Source: a virus. Taken from it: a stretch of DNA of 64,000 nucleotides. Below, piece by piece: positions 3,401 to 50,600 of this stretch. Where the stretch lies: positions 48,725-112,724 of IMG/VR virus record IMGVR_UViG_3300008110_000097; one strand, written 5' to 3'. Within the stretch, counting starts at the first letter, position 1; every line of letters begins with the position of its first letter. The notes under the pieces were generated by a model. It ran no database searches. It was not told the origin of the DNA and saw nothing but the letters and a program-made list of their open reading frames with translations. Position numbers and translations under genes: made by a program.

Positions 3401-5053
3401 TCAAGTACATATAATGTTGGTTGTATTAGTAATGGTTCTATTGGTGCCGGAACTAGTTTATGGGATCAATTGGATGGAAATTATTCAACAAATATTTTAC
3501 AATCACATCCCGATCCATGCTTTAGTGGTGTACCATGTAATGTTGGTGCTGTTGCAAGTATTTATGCCAAATGGCCAACAGATCCGAATGGAGGATTTAG
3601 AAATGCCACAACAAGATGTATTGTGAATGGTGCATATGCTGGCGAAGTAAAGAAAAAGGGACCATATTATTGTGATCAAGGATTAACACAAAGAGGTACA
3701 TTATCAGGATATTCTGAATTTAGAGATGGTGTTTATAGTATAGTACCATTAGCAGGAAACACATTTACAATGTTAAAATCTTTTAGAAGAAGAAAATTAT
3801 TCCATAAGCTAATGTGTGGAGGGGTGGTATCATATACATTTAATGATTCGTGGTTATTAGGGTCACTATATTTCTTTCAATTTATGAAAAGAGGAAGTAA
3901 TAGATTTTGTAAAGAATGTGTGTATAAAGTTCAAGACGCAACGGGCCTCCATTTCTATTATAGATCTACACCATATAGTCCGAGTTATTCGGCATCAGAA
4001 ACACAATATGATTACGATCCCGCAACTGGAACTCAATTAGGTGTAAATACTTCTTTAACGAGTGATTATGCGAACAAAACAAAAGGATTTTATGGTCAAG
4101 TTAGGGCAATTGATTATGGTGCAAATTTTAGTACTCCATTACCTTTTATGAATTTAATTGGTGATTTGTTTAATGGGTTAAATTACAAAAGAGAAATAAA
4201 TTTCCCAACAACAATTATTGATTTAGGACCAAGAAACACTTGGATTAATGAAATATGTACCGATCCTGAGTTAGATGTTAATTGTTCGATATCTAGAAGT
4301 ATAGGTGCAACATCATATAAAGGATTAGATGATTTAATGGAATATATTGTTCAATCTAAAGAAATAAAAGAAAGGGGAAAATTAGATGTACAAGATTTAT
4401 TTGATGCAAGAGCAAACGGACTAATAGATGGTGATATCGCCCAATTAATGAATTTTAATACACAATCGGGAATTTTTCCATTTGAATATGAAGAATCATT
4501 TTCACCATACACAGCACAATACAGTACGGTATTTGATGGTAAAGGTCCAGTCGGTCTTGATTTTGTATTTAGTGAAGATGATCCCGATACGGTTACATTT
4601 GAAAGAGCAGGTGAACTAATTAGAAAATGTTTAAATGAACCAACAAGGCTTGGTGACGTATCCCAAAGAGTTCCATATTATATGTGGGATACTATAGGAC
4701 ATGGTTTCGGAGAATCAACAACTGGTAATATAGGTAGTGATGAAGGACAAAGTTATTATAGTGGTAAAATATATAACCAAAAAATACAATTAATGAAGGG
4801 TAATATGAATCCTGATCCAAACGCAAATCCGTTGGATGATGATTATTTTGATCCCTATGTTTTACCACCAATAAGAGATTGTATTGATGCTGGTAGTGGT
4901 GAAAAGAAATATAATGACAATTATAAAGAACATACTGTGAATGGTGTCAAAAGACATACTATGGAAATTGGTATACCATTTCATTATTATTTTGGATTAA
5001 GAAAAGGTAAGACCGCCTTTGATAAATTTATTGAATTTTACGGACCTTTCTAA
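452..5053 (+). CDS. Large virion (baseplate/tail) structural protein with Cys-bounded repeats, 1533 aa
   Basis: Begins at ATG 452 after a 57-base gap and ends one base before the next gene. The N-terminal ~300 residues are beta-rich and include a segment (about 50-75, GRISVNNGFGLPNARVSIFVP) resembling carboxypeptidase-regulatory/Ig-like folds common in virion proteins. Residues about 640-800 hold two copies of a ~70-residue module that begins and ends with Cys and contains a C-A-K-(K/R)-G-Q-(T/S)-hydrophobic-T-I-P-P core. A hydrophobic stretch near 525-555 could be buried or membrane-contacting. The C-terminal third is rich in aromatic and Asp residues. Its size and its place between baseplate-like genes argue for a baseplate or tail component. 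No enzyme motif was seen; exact role unknown. Confidence 0.6.
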   Translation: MQKHRIYTDIGVDQKITVELKQDYDLLEILSLKFSQQEAYSSFCGDYGVVVGRISVNNGFGLPNARVSIFVPISDVDENDPVLSELYPYRSIDQRNDSNYRYNLLPARKQHTGHVPTGTFPDQSDILNREEVLEVFEKYYRYTVKTNEAGDFMIWGVPLGNQTLHIDLDMSDAGCQSLVPYDFIYDGISEEKFVNKYTYKSASDIDSLPQIVSYDKSIEVYPFWGNQELCQIAITRVDFDLSSQGVRIDPYAIIAGGSFTDSGKDALRVNCNVDNQMGEKCRLITFKGDVESIRFTGNYEKNPDGSPNIDRPILEFFDIDSTIDENGVFFFRIPMNMKYIATNEFGEYYETNDKNIGIATQGNYRFRFSLTEDTGARNRFTGKFLVPNVREYHIGDTSFQGSPTTIDSRSYSFSTNIDDYPPDARKEIAGTSVDAITSDNYGVPQDYFYQFRYGRIYTVSEFINKYYKTSALERAFSFFKKDRRESFIGIKENWPQEKDDCENVNNYFPVNDAVRNHRFQFFILTVLNFIEYIGNVISLFIKEFVTAALFGIAEAIASSGVSNDAAARTFRRGKEFQFTNIFRLQLLVYPDCYDCNEDNEETPVQTPPVAPTADDYKNKPPVATNFTVEEKYEIRRNTDICRKYVFRNYSSSACTLTYIDCDDVSRTIYLPVEENPSNGIEVCAKKGQTITIPPGFGSQVTATQQSPGAYCSGNADDSLYFTYPCDAYTFKNIGLSAFTINNFVDCNNASGNTITVPTGTSGNTFVFCAKRGQSFTIPPQFTGVTYTTSSTSAYCNRCGGTGIDVFSNYTGSTVDGAIMNRKYLLEITPLIGTDPQYIFIGCGTNYPIIYSGQYGRWKVGGGVYSVLASFLADETNTRYDTPIQNSVHEDHGCVFPISKLIYVEDCSDVSAPDPNLPSGIEEEGCNKYDFIIDTKWTEDGGGGSMNLQAFVFPLYNGGTPLQEYAAARNVLMGCRPGDCYPTNSSTYNVGCISNGSIGAGTSLWDQLDGNYSTNILQSHPDPCFSGVPCNVGAVASIYAKWPTDPNGGFRNATTRCIVNGAYAGEVKKKGPYYCDQGLTQRGTLSGYSEFRDGVYSIVPLAGNTFTMLKSFRRRKLFHKLMCGGVVSYTFNDSWLLGSLYFFQFMKRGSNRFCKECVYKVQDATGLHFYYRSTPYSPSYSASETQYDYDPATGTQLGVNTSLTSDYANKTKGFYGQVRAIDYGANFSTPLPFMNLIGDLFNGLNYKREINFPTTIIDLGPRNTWINEICTDPELDVNCSISRSIGATSYKGLDDLMEYIVQSKEIKERGKLDVQDLFDARANGLIDGDIAQLMNFNTQSGIFPFEYEESFSPYTAQYSTVFDGKGPVGLDFVFSEDDPDTVTFERAGELIRKCLNEPTRLGDVSQRVPYYMWDTIGHGFGESTTGNIGSDEGQSYYSGKIYNQKIQLMKGNMNPDPNANPLDDDYFDPYVLPPIRDCIDAGSGEKKYNDNYKEHTVNGVKRHTMEIGIPFHYYFGLRKGKTAFDKFIEFYGPF

Positions 5054-5054
5054 T

Positions 5055-5765
5055 ATGTTTATAAAAGATTTATTTAGTAAAAGAAGACCAAACCATTTGA
5101 TAATTTTTATTGATAACAATAAAACAGATAATGGATTATTTACAATTTTTTCTAAATTTTTACATTCCATTGGTCCATATCGGAAAATTGATGATGTGAT
5201 ACACGATCTAAATATTTTTAAAAAAAAATATACAAATAAATTAGATTACATAATCATAATGACAAATGGTAAAGGTAAACATTTAGTACACACAAAAGAA
5301 GGTGACGATAAAGTTTTTGAATTATTGTTACAATTAAAACCAATGTTAAAGGAAAACGGATCAATGTTATTCGGTACTTGTTTTGTTGGAACAATAAATA
5401 GGAAATTAGTTGAAATGTCACAAAAATTAGATGGAATTAAAATAGTTGCACCAGACACGATTGCTAATTATTTTACTTCTTTATTTAGATTATTTAAACA
5501 TGGGAAAATGTGTTCATGTAAAGATAAAAATTATAGTCAAAATTTAATATCTAAATTACCACAAAGTCAAAGAGGTATGGAACGAGACGAACAAACAATG
5601 ATCGAAATAAACAGAAGAACAGATAATGAAGTGATAAATTGGGAAAGTTGTGGTATGGCTTATGAATATAATAAAAGAACTATCGAAGATGGAATTTGTG
5701 AAAATATTACACAACCATGGTTAGCGATTCATGGATTAATGAATTATTTTTTTAATACACAATAA
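5055..5765 (+). CDS. Possible caspase-fold (DUF4347-like) protein, copy 1 of tandem pair, 236 aa
   Basis: The ATG at 5055, one base after the previous stop, is preferred to an upstream in-frame start because the next gene begins with the same 14 residues (MFIKDLFSKRRPNH). The order of elements resembles clan CD (caspase/DUF4347-type) proteins: beta strand LIIFID (15-20), helix, strand YIIIMT followed by His76, helix, strand SMLFGTC with Cys109 and Gly112, then a helix and GIKIVAP. His76 and Cys109 would be the catalytic pair. The C-terminal ~80 residues (WESCGMAYEYN, GICE) are shared with copy 2. The fold call is a pattern-based inference; the usual His-Gly is here Gly-Lys-His, so it may be non-catalytic. 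Sits among baseplate genes. Confidence 0.5.
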   Translation: MFIKDLFSKRRPNHLIIFIDNNKTDNGLFTIFSKFLHSIGPYRKIDDVIHDLNIFKKKYTNKLDYIIIMTNGKGKHLVHTKEGDDKVFELLLQLKPMLKENGSMLFGTCFVGTINRKLVEMSQKLDGIKIVAPDTIANYFTSLFRLFKHGKMCSCKDKNYSQNLISKLPQSQRGMERDEQTMIEINRRTDNEVINWESCGMAYEYNKRTIEDGICENITQPWLAIHGLMNYFFNTQ

Positions 5766-5766
5766 T

Positions 5767-6474
5767 ATGTTTATAAAAGATTTATTTAGTAAAAGAAGAC
5801 CAAATCATGTTGTTGTTTATCTGGATTATGATAAAAAAGATAAACTTTTATTTAGAACATTTTCCAAATTCACTTATTCAATTGGTCCGGTTAAAACAGT
5901 AAACGAAGTTATTGAAAATATAAAAAAATTTAAACAAAAGTATCCAAATAAATTGAAGTACGTTACCATTAATACATATGGTAGAGGTAAACATTTAATA
6001 AACTCAAAAGAGTTAAAAGAAATTGATGGTGATGAAAAATTAAATTTATTATTAAATGAATTGGTTAGTCTATTAGATACAAATGGTACATTGCAATTTG
6101 CAACATGTTTCGCTGGAATGGCACATAGAAAATTGGTTGAGGTTTCTGAAAAGTATGGTGGTATAAAAACAGCCTCAATGTATGGTGCTTACAGTTTAAA
6201 TGGTAAAGCCGTTGTTTGTAAATGTAAAGAAAATGGGTTTAGTAAAAAAACAATAGATAATATGAAACCAAGTAAGAATGGTATTTTTAATGATGAAGTG
6301 GAAATGATGAACATATACCGAAGAACTGATGGTGAGGAAATGAGTTGGGAAACTTGTGGAATGGCCTATGAATATAATAAAATAATGATTGAAAATGGAA
6401 TTTGTGAAATAAAAAAACAACCATCATCATCAATAAGATGTGTTATGAATTATTTATTTAATATACAAAGATAA
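5767..6474 (+). CDS. Possible caspase-fold (DUF4347-like) protein, copy 2 of tandem pair, 235 aa
   Basis: Paralogue of the preceding gene, one base downstream of it. The first 38 nucleotides are identical between the copies, while the rest has diverged to roughly half identical residues. The same layout is visible: strand VVVYLD (15-20), strand YVTINT followed by His76, then strand TLQFATC with Cys114 and Gly117, then GIKTAS. The C-terminal part again carries W-E-T-C-G-M-A-Y-E-Y-N and GICE. The H and C positions are kept in both copies, which supports a functional pair, but no protease activity can be proven from sequence. The following gene starts directly after its stop. Confidence 0.5.
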   Translation: MFIKDLFSKRRPNHVVVYLDYDKKDKLLFRTFSKFTYSIGPVKTVNEVIENIKKFKQKYPNKLKYVTINTYGRGKHLINSKELKEIDGDEKLNLLLNELVSLLDTNGTLQFATCFAGMAHRKLVEVSEKYGGIKTASMYGAYSLNGKAVVCKCKENGFSKKTIDNMKPSKNGIFNDEVEMMNIYRRTDGEEMSWETCGMAYEYNKIMIENGICEIKKQPSSSIRCVMNYLFNIQR

Positions 6475-9906: not shown

Positions 9907-10827
9907 ATGGCAGTAGGATCATACGGTATAGTTAGACCATCGGATATATCACCACAAGATGTTGATATATATTATCATTATGTTGCAAATCGATTGACAA
10001 CATCTGAGGTTACATTAAAAAAATTAGCCTCTCAGGACATTTTAACACCGGTTTTTCATAATAATGAAACAACCGATGACAATAATGCACCAAATGTTGA
10101 AATATTAGGTGGTTTATATAATTTAAAATTATCCTCTAGTGATTTTTCCGAATTAGGTATATATACCTTACACATTAGACCCAAACAAATAAGAACAACA
10201 ATAACCGATTGTGGTATTTTGGCTTCTTTACCTTCAGTTAGAGGATTAATTATTGATATAAGTAACGTTCCAACCGAAGATAGAAATAAATTCACACCAC
10301 AAGGATTGGTTGGGTATAGAATAGAGTATATCAACACAAATAACAATACTAAAATACCAAATTTTTATAGAGTCGTAACTTCATCATTTTATTGTACACC
10401 AATTGCATCAAATTTGACAAATACAACTCAAAAAGCGATAAGATATCAGTACACTGATCAAGCGACAAATTTAATGTTTCTTACTGTTACACCGTCCTCC
10501 GCACCATCCAGTAAACCAAATACGGTACCTTTTATTGGACAACCATCACAAAAAATTATTTTAACAAATACTTTTTTAAATCCAACTACAATTGAAATCG
10601 AGATGGTTGAACATGATGCAACTACATTAGCACACGCACTTTATGGTAATCAAACTAAGGCGGTTGCACCGGGTATCTATACGATTTACGATAATAATAA
10701 CAATATCTATAGACAATACAACTTGTATGAGATTAAAGATGATCTAAATGACACATTGTATGAGGTTAGAGAAAGAAAAACAGATATTGACCAATCATTA
10801 GATTTTGATACTATTACAAATATATAA
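9907..10827 (+). CDS. Putative virion structural protein, 306 aa
   Basis: Begins at ATG 9907 after a short gap carrying a TATTTATT motif, and its last base is the first base of the next ATG, implying translational coupling. The protein is beta-rich throughout, with a DISPQDVDIYYHYVANRL start and a central GYRIEYINTNN segment; it ends with a charged helix (LYEIKDDLNDTLYEVRERK). No Cys-rich repeats, signal peptide or enzyme motif. Probably a baseplate or tail component by position. Family not recognised. Confidence 0.55.
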   Translation: MAVGSYGIVRPSDISPQDVDIYYHYVANRLTTSEVTLKKLASQDILTPVFHNNETTDDNNAPNVEILGGLYNLKLSSSDFSELGIYTLHIRPKQIRTTITDCGILASLPSVRGLIIDISNVPTEDRNKFTPQGLVGYRIEYINTNNNTKIPNFYRVVTSSFYCTPIASNLTNTTQKAIRYQYTDQATNLMFLTVTPSSAPSSKPNTVPFIGQPSQKIILTNTFLNPTTIEIEMVEHDATTLAHALYGNQTKAVAPGIYTIYDNNNNIYRQYNLYEIKDDLNDTLYEVRERKTDIDQSLDFDTITNI

Positions 10828-22857: not shown

Positions 22858-24945
22858 ATGGGTTTAAATGTTAGGTTATATAATTTACAAATACCACATA
22901 ACTTTATTGTAGAATATAGTGGAGGGTCATCAAGTTCATATGTGTTTTTTGGGGCATTTCCAAGCCTAACATCATCTGTTGTTATAACAAATTTGGAATT
23001 TGATACGAGGTACTTTATAAAAGTAACGGATATTGTTGATGGTACATCAACAATAACTACAATATATACTAATGATAGTAAGGTTTATGAATGTTATGAT
23101 ACTGTAGATTTTTATCTTGATGTTAGTACCACAGGTAGTTGTACTAATAGTAGTGTTACAATATATGATTTGGTTTCAGGTGCAACAAATTTTGGTAATC
23201 ATTCATCTGTCGTTAACGGTGTACCAAATAGTTATCGTATATATACAGGTTTCACATATGAAATTTCGGCTTCAACATTTGTAACAACGGCAACAACAAA
23301 TCCATCTACTGGGTTTATTTATGAATTTAAAAATTTTAGTCCAACACACAAACCTGTTTATATTTTTCTTGAACATGGGGACGGTAGTATAAAAAATAAT
23401 ACATTAACTGATCCAAAAAAACAAGGTGGATTTCAAGTAAGGGTTGTTTTTATTGGATGCCCCGTATGCTTTAATCATTTATGTTATAGTTCAGATACAG
23501 AATATAATACAACACTATATTATCCAATGGGTGTTTACAATGAAAGACCATATTATCAAATATGTTGTGATGATTATTATGTATTTTGGAATGAATCTAA
23601 TAATAGATGGGAAGTAAGAGATGATATTGGTAATGGTACATTACATTCTATTTTATCATATGATGTTGATTATCCTGTAAGTAATCCACCAACGTATATG
23701 TGGTCTGCAATCACATCCAATGTTGGTGATATTTTTTCAAGTAGATTTGAGGAATGTCCACCATCATGTGATATTCAAGTAACAGGAACAACATTACCTT
23801 GTGATTTTACTTATGAATTGACCATACCAGAAATAGATGAAAATACGGAAATAAATATTTATTTTGATTCATCCGGATCGATGAATTCAACATTATCTCC
23901 ATTAATCAATATGAACAGTGGAATATTAAAACCATGTTTATTACCTTATTTTAATAATGATTCTGTCTTATATGATCAAAGAGTTAGTATCACATCAATT
24001 AGTGACGAACGAATATTCCAATGGATGAATAATACAGGTAGTTCACCATCAATAACCACTGTTATTAATTTAGTTTTTTCGGATGAAAATAGTCCATACG
24101 GTGCAGAATGGGGTGTCTCATCATGGGAAACCGCCAGAACACCTCAGTATGATACAGATATGGTTGCTTTAACCAGTACATTAAATCAATTACCATTTGG
24201 GAGATATTTTGCAACCATATTTAGGGTTATTGGAAGTACCGAGTATGGTTCATTTATTCAGGCTGTTAGTGGTGATACATCCTTATCAACACTATATACT
24301 GGATCAACATATGGTTTATCTGGAAGAAATAACATTAATTATGAATTAAATACTTTGGCGGCGTCAACACCATCATATTATGCAGATCTGATAATTAACT
24401 CACTAAATAACTTAGGATTTAATTTGTCACTTTGCAGTTCACTACCCATCGTAACACCAACACCAACTAGTACACCAACTCCTACTAGTACACCAACACC
24501 TACATCGACTAGCACTCCAACTCCTACTAGTACACCTACACCAACTAGTACACCAACACCAACTAGTACACCAACACCAACCGGAATAACCGCTGAAATT
24601 GTTGCATTTGGTGAAAGTGATGGTTCTGGATTTATTAATGGAACAGTCAATGTGATTGCGGGGACGACTTTAGATTTATTAGATTTCGATTTTGTCATTA
24701 GAAGATTTAGTGATCCGACGTGTACAACATTTGTAAGTGGAAACGCGACCTTACCTAGTTTATTATTACCTGCCGGAAACACATCGGCGACTGATAGTAC
24801 AGGTGTTAGTGAAATCGGTGTTGCTAGTTTAAGAGTAATTAATTTGGCTGTAAATGGAATTGGATTAACAACAAATCCACAAATAATTACTATTGGTACG
24901 AATAATTACAAAATTTATGGATTAAACCAATGTACGGGAATGTAA
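22858..24945 (+). CDS. Virion adhesin-like protein with von Willebrand A (MIDAS) domain and Pro/Thr linker, 695 aa
   Basis: N-terminal ~80 residues look fibronectin-like (SSVVITNLEFDTRYFIKVTD). Residues ~205-280 carry one more copy of the WN-x-RWE module of the 2329-aa protein (core FWNESNNRWEVRD). From ~325 a von Willebrand A domain begins: IYFDSSGSM supplies Asp337, Ser339 and Ser341 of a DxSxS metal-ion (MIDAS) site, and the domain seems to run to ~525. A Pro/Thr/Ser linker (~532-576) leads to a ~115-residue beta-rich C-terminal domain. vWA domains bind protein or glycan ligands through a metal; a host-attachment role is inferred. Confidence 0.65.
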   Translation: MGLNVRLYNLQIPHNFIVEYSGGSSSSYVFFGAFPSLTSSVVITNLEFDTRYFIKVTDIVDGTSTITTIYTNDSKVYECYDTVDFYLDVSTTGSCTNSSVTIYDLVSGATNFGNHSSVVNGVPNSYRIYTGFTYEISASTFVTTATTNPSTGFIYEFKNFSPTHKPVYIFLEHGDGSIKNNTLTDPKKQGGFQVRVVFIGCPVCFNHLCYSSDTEYNTTLYYPMGVYNERPYYQICCDDYYVFWNESNNRWEVRDDIGNGTLHSILSYDVDYPVSNPPTYMWSAITSNVGDIFSSRFEECPPSCDIQVTGTTLPCDFTYELTIPEIDENTEINIYFDSSGSMNSTLSPLINMNSGILKPCLLPYFNNDSVLYDQRVSITSISDERIFQWMNNTGSSPSITTVINLVFSDENSPYGAEWGVSSWETARTPQYDTDMVALTSTLNQLPFGRYFATIFRVIGSTEYGSFIQAVSGDTSLSTLYTGSTYGLSGRNNINYELNTLAASTPSYYADLIINSLNNLGFNLSLCSSLPIVTPTPTSTPTPTSTPTPTSTSTPTPTSTPTPTSTPTPTSTPTPTGITAEIVAFGESDGSGFINGTVNVIAGTTLDLLDFDFVIRRFSDPTCTTFVSGNATLPSLLLPAGNTSATDSTGVSEIGVASLRVINLAVNGIGLTTNPQIITIGTNNYKIYGLNQCTGM
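24451..24585 (+). repeat. Pro/Thr/Ser-coding tandem repeat, copy 4
   Basis: Tandem units such as ccaactagtacaccaacacc encode a TPTPTSTPTPTSTSTP-type linker between the vWA domain and the C-terminal domain. Related to the repeats at 17121, 19727 and 20418. Confidence 0.85.
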
Positions 24946-27116: not shown

Positions 27117-27722
27117 ATGAGTATAAAATTAAAGAATAGTCCAAAGATATTAGGTTTGGATATATCAACAAAGACAATTGGATTTGCGTTATTTGATTTA
27201 ACTGGTTCTAAATTATTGGAATTAACACACTTTTCTCCAAAAATAAAACCTCAACCTGAAGACAAACTTGAGGAATTATTGAAGAAGGCGGATGCCTTCA
27301 AAAAACATATCGAGAATTATAAAGATATGGGTATCCTTCGTGTAATCATCGAAGAACCATTGTTAAATTCAAATAACATTTATACCGTTCAGACTTTATT
27401 GAGGTATAATACAATGATTTGTAAAATAGTTTATGATACTTTGGGAATTGTGCCCACCTTTATATCAACATATAATGCAAGAAAATTTGCATTTCCTGAT
27501 TTAGTTAATAAAAATGACAAAGGTAAAAATGTTTTGTTTGGTGGTTATCCAAAAGACATTGATAAAAAACAAGTAATTTGGGAACATGTAAATGCGGTTT
27601 GTGCAGATGTTAAGTGGTTATATGATAAAAATAACAAATTAAAGAAAGAAAACTTTGATATGAGTGATGCCGCAACTGCTGTTATTGGTTATGTTAACAT
27701 GATTAAATTAGAAAAAAATTAG
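27117..27722 (+). CDS. RuvC-like Holliday junction resolvase / RNase H-fold nuclease, 201 aa
   Basis: The pattern of RuvC-type nucleases is clear: strand ILGLDIST with Asp15, strand RVIIEEPL with Glu79/Glu80, and a C-terminal FDMSDAATAVIGY segment with Asp181 and Asp184. These four acidic positions bind two metal ions that cleave branched DNA. In phages such enzymes resolve recombination or replication intermediates before packaging, in place of T4 gp49. Length is typical for RuvC-fold resolvases. It is the first DNA-metabolism gene after the virion block and lies close to the gp46/gp47-like recombination genes, which fits. Confidence 0.75.
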   Translation: MSIKLKNSPKILGLDISTKTIGFALFDLTGSKLLELTHFSPKIKPQPEDKLEELLKKADAFKKHIENYKDMGILRVIIEEPLLNSNNIYTVQTLLRYNTMICKIVYDTLGIVPTFISTYNARKFAFPDLVNKNDKGKNVLFGGYPKDIDKKQVIWEHVNAVCADVKWLYDKNNKLKKENFDMSDAATAVIGYVNMIKLEKN

Positions 27723-27807: not shown

Positions 27808-27852
27808 AAAAATCCGGCAACTTAAATTTTACATTTTATAATTATTCAACTA

Positions 27853-27860
27853 TATTTATA
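27853..27860 (+). promoter_or_regulatory. TATTTATA motif before the small RNA (possible promoter element)
   Basis: TATTTATA just upstream of a structured, terminator-ended non-coding segment. This is the one copy of the octamer not followed by a protein start codon, which supports a transcriptional role for the motif. If it acts like a T4 late -10 box, transcription would start near 27866. Confidence 0.4.
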
Positions 27861-27862
27861 TA

Positions 27863-27931
27863 GACGGGGCATGTAGAAATACATGTTGGTTGGTATCCCT
27901 CGGAGTTGGTGTCTCCGGGGGATTTTTTTTT
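27863..27931 (+). ncRNA. Putative structured small RNA with two hairpins
   Basis: Between the tiny ORF and the primase there is a GC-richer island in otherwise AT-rich DNA. Hairpin 1 is CATGTA-GAAA-TACATG (27870-27885), a perfect 6-bp stem capped by a GNRA tetraloop and extendable by two G-T pairs. Hairpin 2 (27895-27923) is an 11-bp stem with one G-T pair and a 7-base loop, followed by nine T. An octamer TATTTATA lies just upstream. The layout (promoter-like box, compact hairpins, terminator) suits an independent small RNA of about 70 bases. It matches no RNA family I can name; alternatives are a primase-operon attenuator or simply an elaborate terminator. Confidence 0.5.
27895..27931 (+). 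terminator. Strong rho-independent terminator
   Basis: Stem ATCCCTCGGAG (27895-27905) pairs with CTCCGGGGGAT (27913-27923) with one G-T pair and a TTGGTGT loop; nine T follow (27923-27931). It would end transcripts from the resolvase side or the small RNA. Confidence 0.8.
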
Positions 27932-27958
27932 ATCACTTTTTTTTCTTATCATTTGACA

Positions 27959-28900
27959 ATGACCGAACAAGAAGTACAATACGAACCGATAATAGAGATA
28001 TTAGAAGATATTCTTGGTGAATGTAGATCACACAATGATTACAGATACCAAATGTCCTTTGACTGTCCTGTTTGTTCATACGATGTTAAAGGTTTGGATT
28101 CTGGTGACGGTAAAGGTAACTTAGAGGTTAATTACAAATATTCAGTTTATAAATGTTGGGTTTGTTGTGAAACCCATGAAACACACGGATCAATATATAA
28201 ACTTATTAAAAAATTCGGAACACCAAAACAATTGAAAAAATATCAATTGTTAAAACCAGAAGAAGTTGAGGATTTTAAAAATAGAACATATAAAAAAGTA
28301 AGATTACCAAAAGAATTCGTACCATTTAAAAATATTTCATCTGGTTTAAAATTAACTCATCACTATAAACAAGCAATGGGTTATCTTAAAAAAAGAAACA
28401 TAACAGATGAAATGATTGAAAAGTATAACATTGGATTTTGTTATACTGGTCATTATGAAAACAGAATATTGATACCATCATATGATGAGGAACAAAATCT
28501 AAATTATTTTATTGCTCGTTCGTATTTGTCAAAAACAAAATTGAAATATAAAAATCCCGATGTTCCAAAAGAAACGATAGTTTGGAATGAACATTTAATA
28601 AAATGGGATGAACCGATTTATATTGTTGAAGGAGTTTTTGATAGTATATTTATCCCAAATTCAATTCCGTTATTGGGTAAATTTATGAGTGAAAAAATAT
28701 TTAATTTATTATATGAAAAGGCAAAAAAAATAATTTTAGTACTTGACCCCGATGCTTGGTTAGATACAGAAAAACTTTATCACAGAATAAATTGTGGTAA
28801 ATTATTTAGTAAAGTATTTGTTATAAAATTAGAAGGCGACAAAGACATTGCCGACTTACAAGGAAAATTAGACGATTATAAAATACATCAATTAGATTAA
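27959..28900 (+). CDS. DNA primase (CHC2-like zinc finger plus TOPRIM), 313 aa
   Basis: The ATG at 27959 is preferred; the longer frame from GTG 27890 would start inside the terminator. An N-terminal zinc finger is visible as CPVC (Cys36, Cys39) and CWVC (Cys66, Cys69). The catalytic TOPRIM fold follows, with IYIVEGVFDSI (Glu224) and IILVLDPDAW (Asp263, Asp265), the metal-binding triad that makes RNA primers. The short length and lack of a helicase domain resemble T4 gp61-type stand-alone primases. It starts a tight operon with a RecB-like nuclease and the gp47/gp46-like genes. A helicase partner was not seen in this window. Confidence 0.8.
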   Translation: MTEQEVQYEPIIEILEDILGECRSHNDYRYQMSFDCPVCSYDVKGLDSGDGKGNLEVNYKYSVYKCWVCCETHETHGSIYKLIKKFGTPKQLKKYQLLKPEEVEDFKNRTYKKVRLPKEFVPFKNISSGLKLTHHYKQAMGYLKKRNITDEMIEKYNIGFCYTGHYENRILIPSYDEEQNLNYFIARSYLSKTKLKYKNPDVPKETIVWNEHLIKWDEPIYIVEGVFDSIFIPNSIPLLGKFMSEKIFNLLYEKAKKIILVLDPDAWLDTEKLYHRINCGKLFSKVFVIKLEGDKDIADLQGKLDDYKIHQLD

Positions 28901-34146: not shown

Positions 34147-34821
34147 ATGACACCAAAAGACTTAAAAAATTTCGGTTTATTTGCCAAAGATCACGGTATC
34201 GGTTCATTAAAAATGGACTACTATAACAAAAGAATAGAAAATAGTTTAACCCCCTACATTCTCGAGGAAAGACAAATGAATGTTACCGCAATGGATGTCT
34301 TTTCAAGATTAATGATGGAACGTATCATATGGGTTGCTGGTGAGGTAAATGATCACATGTCCACAATTGTCCAAGCACAACTTATGTTTTTGGATAGTAT
34401 AGATTATAATGACATAACCATGCATATTGATAGTCCAGGTGGTAGTGTTAAATCTGGGTTATCAATGGTTGATGTTATGAATTATATTAAGTCCGACATT
34501 AGAACTATTAATACGGGAATGGCCGCATCAATGGGGTCAGTATTATTAGGGGCGGGAACCAAAGGGAAAAGAGGTTCTTTGGAGAACTCCGAAACAATGT
34601 TACACCAATCTAGTGGTGGTTTCAGAGGTAATATTCAAGATGCTGAGATAGACATGAAACAATGGAAGAGATTAAATGATAAATTGTTTGAATTACTTGG
34701 GGAATATTGTGGAAAGACTGCAGATCAGATAAAAACTGACACAATAAGGGATTTGTGGTTGTCTTCAGAAGAGGCTTTGGAGTATGGTATCATTGATGAA
34801 ATCGTCAAAAAGAAAAAGTAA
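34147..34821 (+). CDS. ClpP-like serine protease, 224 aa
   Basis: ClpP-family features are clear: IDSPGGSV (~94-101), the nucleophile in GMAASMGS (Ser128), His153 in MLHQSSGG and Asp202 in RDLWLSSEEALEYGIIDE. It has the usual ClpP length plus a slightly longer N-terminus (~1-40). ClpP forms barrels that degrade unfolded substrates when fed by a Clp ATPase; none was seen in the window, so it may use a host or distant phage partner. Another option in phages is a ClpP-type capsid maturation protease. It is preceded by a strong Bacteroidota promoter. Confidence 0.8.
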   Translation: MTPKDLKNFGLFAKDHGIGSLKMDYYNKRIENSLTPYILEERQMNVTAMDVFSRLMMERIIWVAGEVNDHMSTIVQAQLMFLDSIDYNDITMHIDSPGGSVKSGLSMVDVMNYIKSDIRTINTGMAASMGSVLLGAGTKGKRGSLENSETMLHQSSGGFRGNIQDAEIDMKQWKRLNDKLFELLGEYCGKTADQIKTDTIRDLWLSSEEALEYGIIDEIVKKKK

Positions 34822-47692: not shown

Positions 47693-50600
47693 ATGGGATT
47701 ACAAAAGATAAATTGGTCACAAATTGACTCCATAACCGTACCTTCGGGGTACACGGTTCAAATAGGTAAAATTGATGGACCTATAGATGCAATATATTCT
47801 GAGAATATATATTTGTCAGGTACACCAATAAGTGATTTGTATCTTAATAGTGGATCATTTAGTCAAGGTGTCTTAACACTAACTAGCAATAGTGGTAACA
47901 CGATAACTGTTAGTGGTTTTGAATACGATTTTGATCGTTATACCACAGGATTTACATATAGTGACAATACTTTTACAATAGTCGACAGGTCGGGATACAC
48001 ATTAACCGCATCTTTTAACATACTAACAGGATTAACAATTAATGGTGATTTAGATCTTAATGGTGATTTAAATATAACGGGTAACACCACATTAAATGGC
48101 GGGTTTATTGCAACGACAATAAGTGCGACTACTTATCAAAATCTTCCAATAGACCCAAATATTTTTGTTACGGGAGTCACCTATGGAAATAATACACTTA
48201 CAATTAATGATAATAACAATTCTTCGTTTGTTATTACAATAAACGATTTAACAGGATTGACCATTAATGGTGATTTAAGTGTTAGTGGAGACACAAATCT
48301 CAATACTTTATTTTCTAATATAATATCGGCAACAACGATAAGTGGTGGAACATTATATGGTGACGGATCTAACTTAACAAATATAGATAATATATATACT
48401 GTCGATGGTTATCTATTGTCAAATAGGATTGTTGATTTAAGTGGAAATACGTTATCGTTAAGAAGAACTTCTAATATTAATGATAGATTTTTAAATGGAT
48501 TAGACGAGTCGGGAAATATATTATTTGAAATAAGATCATCTATAACTAATCCCGCGGAATTAGAATTTGCAAATTTATTTATCGGTAAAAATGCTGGTAG
48601 AATTTCAACATCTAACGTTAGAACTAACTTAGTTGTTGGTAACACCTCAATGACGGGAATCACTAGTGGTGTTAAAAATACAGTTTTTGGTAATAATTCT
48701 TTAACAAAACTCATTAGAGGTAGTTTTAATAGTATAATTGGTGATACTGTTGCAATTAATTTTACTGGTGCAACAACAGGGACGTTTGGTGATGACAATG
48801 TTTTTATAGGAAATGGTTCAGCATTGAATCAACTTACAGGTAGAAACAACGTATATATCGGAACCAACACAAGACAAAATGCGACTTCTGGAGATGGTAA
48901 CACAATTGTCGGAAAAAATGCTGGTTTTAATAATATAACTGGTAGTAATAATGTTTTTATTGGTCTTAATGCGGGTAGAAACGAAACGGGATCAAATTTA
49001 CTTTACATTGAAAATACCACTTCATCAACACCATTGATATATGGTGATTTCGCAAATGATTTGTTGAGATTTAATGGTAAAGTGGGCGTTAATGTTTTAC
49101 CCGGCACATTTCAATTTGATGTTAATGGTACAAGTAGATTTTCAAATACTGTTCAATTAGATACGGTTAATTTAAGTACATCTGACACAAAAATATTAAG
49201 TTTAAGTACTGGTAACACCATTCAATATAGATCATTATCGGATATTATATCTTCTGTGACAGGTGACACATATGTGACTGGATTCACATATAACAATTCA
49301 AATAAATTTACAATATTTGATAATTCAGGATCTACGTTTAGTGTACTTATTAATGAACTAACAGGATTAACTATTAACGGTGATTTAAGTGTTAGTGGAA
49401 ACACTAATTTAAATTACTTAGAGGTAAATACAATATCCGCAACAACTATAAGTGGTCAAACATTTTATGGTGACGGAAGAAATTTACAAGGTATCCCAAA
49501 ATGGTATGCCGAAAGTGATGTTATACCTACAGTTTATCCATACGAGAAACCATATGTCATTACTGGTAGTACTGGTCAAGGTTCATTTGCATTAGGACCT
49601 AATGCCCAGTCTTTAAGTTTTGACCAAATTTCGTTTGGTGATTTTGCGGGTAGAGAAACAACAGGTGCAAGTAGATCAACATTTATAGGGTATGGATCAG
49701 GTATTAGGGCTAATGATAGTGATCTAAGTAATTTTATTGGACAAAGTGCCGGTTCAGATTCAAAAAATTCAAACAATTCAAATTTTATTGGTATTGGTGC
49801 GGGACAAAATTCAAAAAACGCAGGATTTTCAAATTTTATAGGGTATAATGCGGGATATAATATCAACGGTGAAACAATTGTTGGATTTGATAGACAAATC
49901 AGAGGTTTTGATTCAAATTTTATAGGTAATTTAGCGGGTAGTGGTGCATTGTATGCGTCAGGTTCAACTTTTATAGGTACTAACGCGGGTTCAAATGCTA
50001 ATTACGCTAGATTTTCAAATTTTATTGGTTATTTGGCAGGTAAAGATTCAACCAACGCATCGTATTCAACATTAATAGGTTTTAATGTAGGAACACCTAG
50101 ATTTGGGTTTAGTAAAATAGGAAAAAATAATATCATTATTGGTAATTCTATCACATTACCAAATGGAACCACGGATTCTATTAATATTGGTGGTGTATTA
50201 TTTGGTATCAATACTAATTTTGATACTTCTGGTGGAAGTCCTAGTGATTCACCTACAACAACAGGAAAAATAGGTATAGGTGTCGTAACACCTTTAAACA
50301 GATTACATGTTGAAGATACAATCGATCCTGTTAGATTCGTTGGATTACAAAGTGGAACAACGGAAACCAGAATATTAACATCCGACAATAATGGTATTAT
50401 AAAATATAAAAATTTAAGTGATATAACAATATCAGGAAACTACTTACCATTAAGTGGTGGAACGGTTACTGACGACGTATTATTCCAAAGTGGAATCACC
50501 GCAACAACTATAAGTGGTCAAACATTTTATGGTGTCGGTTCTAATAAACAAGTAATATACAATAATAATGGTATATTATCGGGCAGTACAGGATTCACAT

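Follow-up and report, generated by a model that had tools for sequence, protein, structure and literature searches.

A probable new family of terminated small RNAs between the RuvC-like resolvase and primase genes of uncultured phages

The antitermination RNAs of phages HK022 (put) and lambda (nut) are built either of two hairpins or of a hairpin and a linker, and the boxB hairpin of nut carries a GNRA-like loop. The element described here resembles them as a phage RNA of that general layout but differs in that the loop of its first hairpin varies and its second hairpin is the terminator itself. Phage lambda also encodes PreS (LPR1), a small RNA of ~88 nt that a review (PMC12197685) lists as acting in trans and aiding phage propagation via the host replication gene dnaN. 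PreS is a phage small RNA of similar length and serves as a functional analogy only, for the option of antisense action, lambda being another phage of another host group. In Bacteroides thetaiotaomicron, GibS and FopS are short RNAs with an intrinsic terminator and sigma-ABfr type promoters (PMC11697453, PMC7366714), which makes them terminator-ended short RNAs from what is probably the host phylum of the phages considered here. FopS, however, consists of a 5' single-stranded seed and a terminator hairpin, whereas the present element has two hairpins and other conserved letters; FopS is also said to be deposited in Rfam, whereas the present element matches no Rfam family. The abiF, wcaG, manA, and glnA motifs found in a cyanophage (PMC12197685) are likewise structured RNAs in aquatic phages, but their structures differ from this one, which has no Rfam match.

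The window analysed here is a stretch of 64,000 nucleotides (positions 48,725 to 112,724) of the 112.7 kb IMG/VR virus record IMGVR_UViG_3300008110_000097, which is AT-rich (30% GC) and carries nearly all of its genes on the plus strand. A 236-base gap separates a RuvC-like resolvase gene from a primase gene, and these neighbours match PHROG 159 and PHROG 47. The two genes and the contents of the gap are, in order:

27117-27722, plus strand: RuvC-like Holliday junction resolvase, upstream neighbour (PHROG 159, E 3e-6)
27816-27822, plus strand: GGCAACT box, upstream part of the promoter-like block (GGCAA in 82-89% of 44 distinct relatives, fixed at -35 to -31 from TATATTTA)
27827-27832, plus strand: TTTTAC, -33-like element (TTT at -24 to -22 from TATATTTA, 86-100% conserved)
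27851-27858, plus strand: TATATTTA, -7/-10-like element, in nearly all 44 distinct relatives; predicted RNA start at about 27861-27865
27862-27931, plus strand: predicted small RNA of about 70 nt, from covariation and a covariance model match at 27862-27930 (68 bits, E 3.6e-15; the tool itself describes model E-values as rough)
27863-27868, plus strand: near-invariant 5' GACGGG, with potential pairing of its GAC to the linker GUU (CGGG in 42 of 44 distinct sequences)
27869-27886, plus strand: hairpin 1, GCATGTA-GAAA-TACATGU, with the GAAA-loop hairpin proper at 27870-27885 (7 pairs, double changes at 7/7, 96.7% of cells paired)
27886-27893, plus strand: G/U-rich linker UUGGUUGG (exact in 39 of 44 distinct sequences)
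27895-27923, plus strand: hairpin 2, intrinsic terminator with loop UUGGUGU at 27906-27912 (9 pairs, double changes at 9/9, 98% of cells paired)
27923-27931, plus strand: T-run of the terminator, nine T (from the letters and a terminator scan)
27947-27955, plus strand: TATCATTTG, a weak form of a separate primase promoter-like site; this imperfect window copy is left out of the relatives' count
27959-28900, plus strand: DNA primase, downstream neighbour (PHROG 47, E 8e-40; Pfam DNAG_N)

Elsewhere in the window, a ClpP-type head protease is encoded at 34147-34821, and its best match, at 60% identity, is from an uncultured 634 kb phage (LR745206), a match by which the clade may be related to huge phages. 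Two adjacent ORFs at 5019-6474 have the start MFIKDLFSKRRPNH in common and are likely a tandem duplication, and a PTPTSTPTPT repeat run (24378-24782) lies inside the ORF of a probable structural protein (22858-24945). Many start codons (window positions 9907, 17842, 22858, 24973, 36379, 45095, 52184, 55470, and 57488) are preceded at 5-25 bases by TATTTA or ATATTTAT, possibly the late promoter of this phage.

The hairpins that had been read from the letters are present as described: the perfect CATGTA-GAAA-TACATG hairpin at 27870-27885 and an 11-bp terminator stem (27895-27905 with 27913-27923) that encloses a 7-nt loop and is followed by nine T. The limits proposed for the RNA required revision. 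While the element at 27862-27931 lies within the range first given (27853-27931), its predicted start is more likely at about 27861-27865 than near 27866, and the promoter-like block begins at 27816, outside that range; likewise, the upstream TATTTATA does occur at 27853-27860 but is better read as TATATTTA at 27851-27858. The suggested folding check gave -28.5 kcal/mol for the element against -16.6 +/- 2.8 for shuffled sequences (z -4.3; 0 of 200 shuffles as good), and its terminator is the strongest among four terminator-like sites in 3 kb. The element combines conserved secondary structure without coding capacity and an intrinsic terminator at the RNA 3' end, the stem of which is kept by covariation (9/9 pairs). 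Its reported absence from known RNA families agrees with a search of Rfam release 15, in which no family reached the gathering score anywhere in the window and none matched the element at E <= 5.

Related elements were identified in about 100 environmental viral contigs, almost always between RuvC-like and primase genes; the carriers are large uncultured phages from fresh water. A search with the RuvC-like protein led to loci whose corresponding gap holds a clearly related, diverged element. A gapped DNA pattern (linker, loop, and T-run) matched 95 stretches over 2.9 million viral contigs, with four unrelated sequences among the unique matches listed, and a second pattern (promoter, CGGG, and linker) yielded 14 more loci and four chance matches. 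With a covariance model built from 12 sequences, we recovered 89 true elements in 99 loci, 44 of them distinct, and these counts are not independent events, as the sequences share kinship. Each record, itself a fragment, has one strong copy, even at 200-336 kb, and additional model matches inside carrier records are weak (E 0.02 to 0.09). One locus (L014:4641-4770) holds an element that is longer by about 60 bases (fold z -3.9); it has additional hairpins, and its linker GGUUGG is paired with CCAACC.

By BLASTN, neither deposited phage genomes nor a plasmid collection returned an element match. No convincing match was found in the cultured Flavobacterium phage immuto, which has the nearest primase, or in huge phages of 484-642 kb, with stricter filters for the largest records. 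Homologues in bacterial genomes were rejected, the 58 pattern matches (best model score 23.7 bits) being judged to be chance. The element is absent from the deposited phages, plasmids, and bacterial genomes searched, so that environmental sequence is the only source from which the clade is known. The promoter type and the nearest cultured primase suggest that Bacteroidota are the probable hosts of the carrier phages.

A check for conserved hairpins with compensatory changes in related phages had been proposed, and these were found. In an alignment of 45 distinct rows, which includes one spurious minus-strand match that can only weaken the result, double compensatory changes occur at all 16 tested pairs. 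Double-change cells in these rows number 265, versus 84.8 +/- 7.5 in shuffles, and paired cells make up 97.4%, versus 57% in shuffles, with structures slid by 1-3 columns dropping to 39-58%. A small hand-set alignment, independent of the model, gave double changes at 14 of 16 pairs. Hairpin 1 (7/7 pairs) and hairpin 2 (9/9 pairs) are thus separately supported by per-pair double changes, and, as judged from covariation, the two-hairpin element is real and selected. Five further conserved pairs, between GACGGG and UUGGUU, can lengthen hairpin 1 at its base; these are mostly G-U or A-U and change on one side only, and so are compatible with pairing rather than independently proven.

Sequence conservation falls in the unpaired or wobble-rich positions. 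The terminator arms vary among relatives from CCCCUGGAG to GGGAGUCGA, with the C-rich and G-rich sides swapped, while 42 of 44 distinct sequences retain UGGUGU in the terminator loop. Hairpin 1 has a variable loop (GAAA, GCAA, UUUA, UUAAAA, UAUUUU, and others), which takes the GNRA form in just 21 of the 44. A GNRA loop is therefore rejected as the functional core and does not define the element: the hairpin is kept, not its loop. Because terminators need no particular loop sequence, the letters of CGGG, the linker, and UGGUGU must be selected for something else.

Upstream of the RNA, the distance from TATATTTA to CGGG is 6-11 bases in most distinct relatives. Promoters of Bacteroidota have a TTTG-like -33 element and a -7 consensus of TAnnTTTG (PMC7366714), and the GGCAA/TTT/TATATTTA block resembles this -33/-7 pattern, in a host phylum that we infer. 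We also considered a minus-strand late promoter of the T4 type (TATAAATA, the complement of TATTTATA) and rejected it, as relatives carry TATATTTA, which does not give the T4 motif when complemented, and the genes nearby are on the plus strand. The GGCAAC/A box, a T-run, and an AT-rich -10-like site also recur in three related phages in front of another gene, which lies ~3 kb downstream of the RNA (L224, G001:207970; L273, G006:142128; L246, G021:56416), and the recurring box suggests a small promoter set sharing an activator site.

Downstream, TAnnTT, usually as TATATT(T), is found between the terminator and the primase start in 34 of 43 distinct relatives. In L006, L008, and L038, for example, a -10-like TATATTT ends 3-6 bases 5' of the primase ATG, a spacing at which the mRNA would have little or no leader. 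The RuvC gene and the RNA are separated by an inserted UDP-glucose/GDP-mannose dehydrogenase gene in two loci (L084 and L297), where the promoter-like block remains attached to the RNA. L034 has, between the intact RNA and the primase, a gene that we take from its translation to be class III aminotransferase-like, and the primase there has its own TATATTTT site just before its start. These insertions indicate that the RNA is separable from either neighbour, and this separability, with a single case on the primase side, is the main argument against reading the element as no more than a leader or a terminator for RuvC.

The original prediction of an independent small RNA of ~70 bases with its own terminator is favoured by the ~100 relatives, the compensatory changes at 16 pairs, and the conserved promoter-like block upstream. 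The explanation that we consider probable is a dedicated, terminated phage small RNA of ~70 nt that represents a new family and probably acts in trans. We hypothesize that RNA polymerase with a host or phage sigma factor would start just 3' of TATATTTA, transcribe the two hairpins and the G/U-rich linker between them, and stop at the T-run, so that a short and stable RNA would be released. In this RNA, hairpin 1 and the terminator would provide a scaffold that tolerates sequence change, while the 5' CGGG, the linker UUGGUUGG, and the terminator loop GUGGUGU would form a contact surface that may act in trans, either through base pairing with an RNA of the host or through contact with a protein of phage or host origin. 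Counting against a trans-acting RNA, synteny with the primase is nearly absolute, as it would also be for a cis element. The RNA may not be indispensable, given a terminator-only locus (L018) and the longer form in L014.

Placement just upstream of the primase in nearly all loci would also suit an attenuator, a conditional terminator acting in cis within the leader of a primase-exonuclease-SbcCD operon, in which termination or read-through would depend on a protein or small molecule bound to hairpin 1, the linker, and the terminator loop; the conserved loop also lies within the terminator hairpin, where a bound protein could affect termination. We regard such a leader, or a riboswitch, as unlikely, since it has no conserved alternative fold or partner segment, and the terminator arms, by swapping their C-rich and G-rich identities, can have no fixed antiterminator partner. 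Most relatives moreover have a separate promoter-like site between terminator and primase, and in L034 the gene that follows the RNA is unrelated and the primase has a promoter-like site of its own. It is more doubtful still that the element is a mere strong terminator insulating the RuvC/tail transcript from the replication genes, with hairpin 1 and the linker as stabilising extras. Two more distant relatives (L028 and L029) do have the terminator and promoter alone at the corresponding place, and L018 keeps a terminator with a similar loop and lacks hairpin 1. This last pattern, retention of the terminator stem only, is the one originally named as telling against a small RNA, but it is an exception. 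An insulator would leave unexplained the conserved promoter-like block between RuvC and the element, the maintenance of hairpin 1 by compensatory change, and the invariance of the terminator loop (7-8 nt) and the 8-nt linker while the stems diverge.

The adjoining replication genes (primase and recombination) and the G clusters in the RNA could also point to a replication origin at which a G-rich transcript would form an R-loop and serve as primer for phage DNA synthesis. This we consider very improbable: seven related records have no GC-skew switch at the site, a perfect terminator follows after 70 nt, and covariation indicates a folded RNA, not a DNA element. Hardly any weight attaches to a short coding sequence or to chance hairpins, for although a 45-codon ORF begins inside the element (27883), the stems invert between G-rich and C-rich among relatives, length differences are not multiples of three, and the fold z of -4.3 together with the covariation excludes chance hairpins.

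If the favoured small RNA acts in trans, its partner could be an RNA or a protein. In six phage genomes, antisense sites at phage translation starts were not enriched over shuffled seeds or coding interiors; the linker seed did no better than shuffled seeds, and the terminator-loop seed gave a marginal result in one test, where 1 of 20 shuffles was stronger, and was not enriched at starts versus coding interiors. A sigma-factor start (ACACCAACCACATG in G006) was among the best target matches and was discarded, as it is not kept in orthologues and there is no overall enrichment. Antisense action on phage genes is therefore unsupported, and host RNAs or a protein partner remain as candidates. 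Protein binding would fit well with two fixed features, the wobble-rich base of hairpin 1 and the terminator loop. More speculatively, the element is possibly the founding member of a new RNA class, in which a near-invariant wobble-rich helix (GACGG/UUGGUU) and the loop GUGGUGU would form the binding site for one phage or host factor, and in infected Bacteroidota the RNA would serve as a scaffold or decoy instead of pairing as an antisense RNA.

Few small RNAs are known from strictly environmental large phages, and curated libraries gave none for the present clade; the covariance model of the element can now join such RNA libraries. More generally, a compact, strongly covarying RNA with a fixed recognition sequence, encoded beside the replication genes, offers a precise and testable way into the RNA-level control of uncultured phages that probably infect Bacteroidota.
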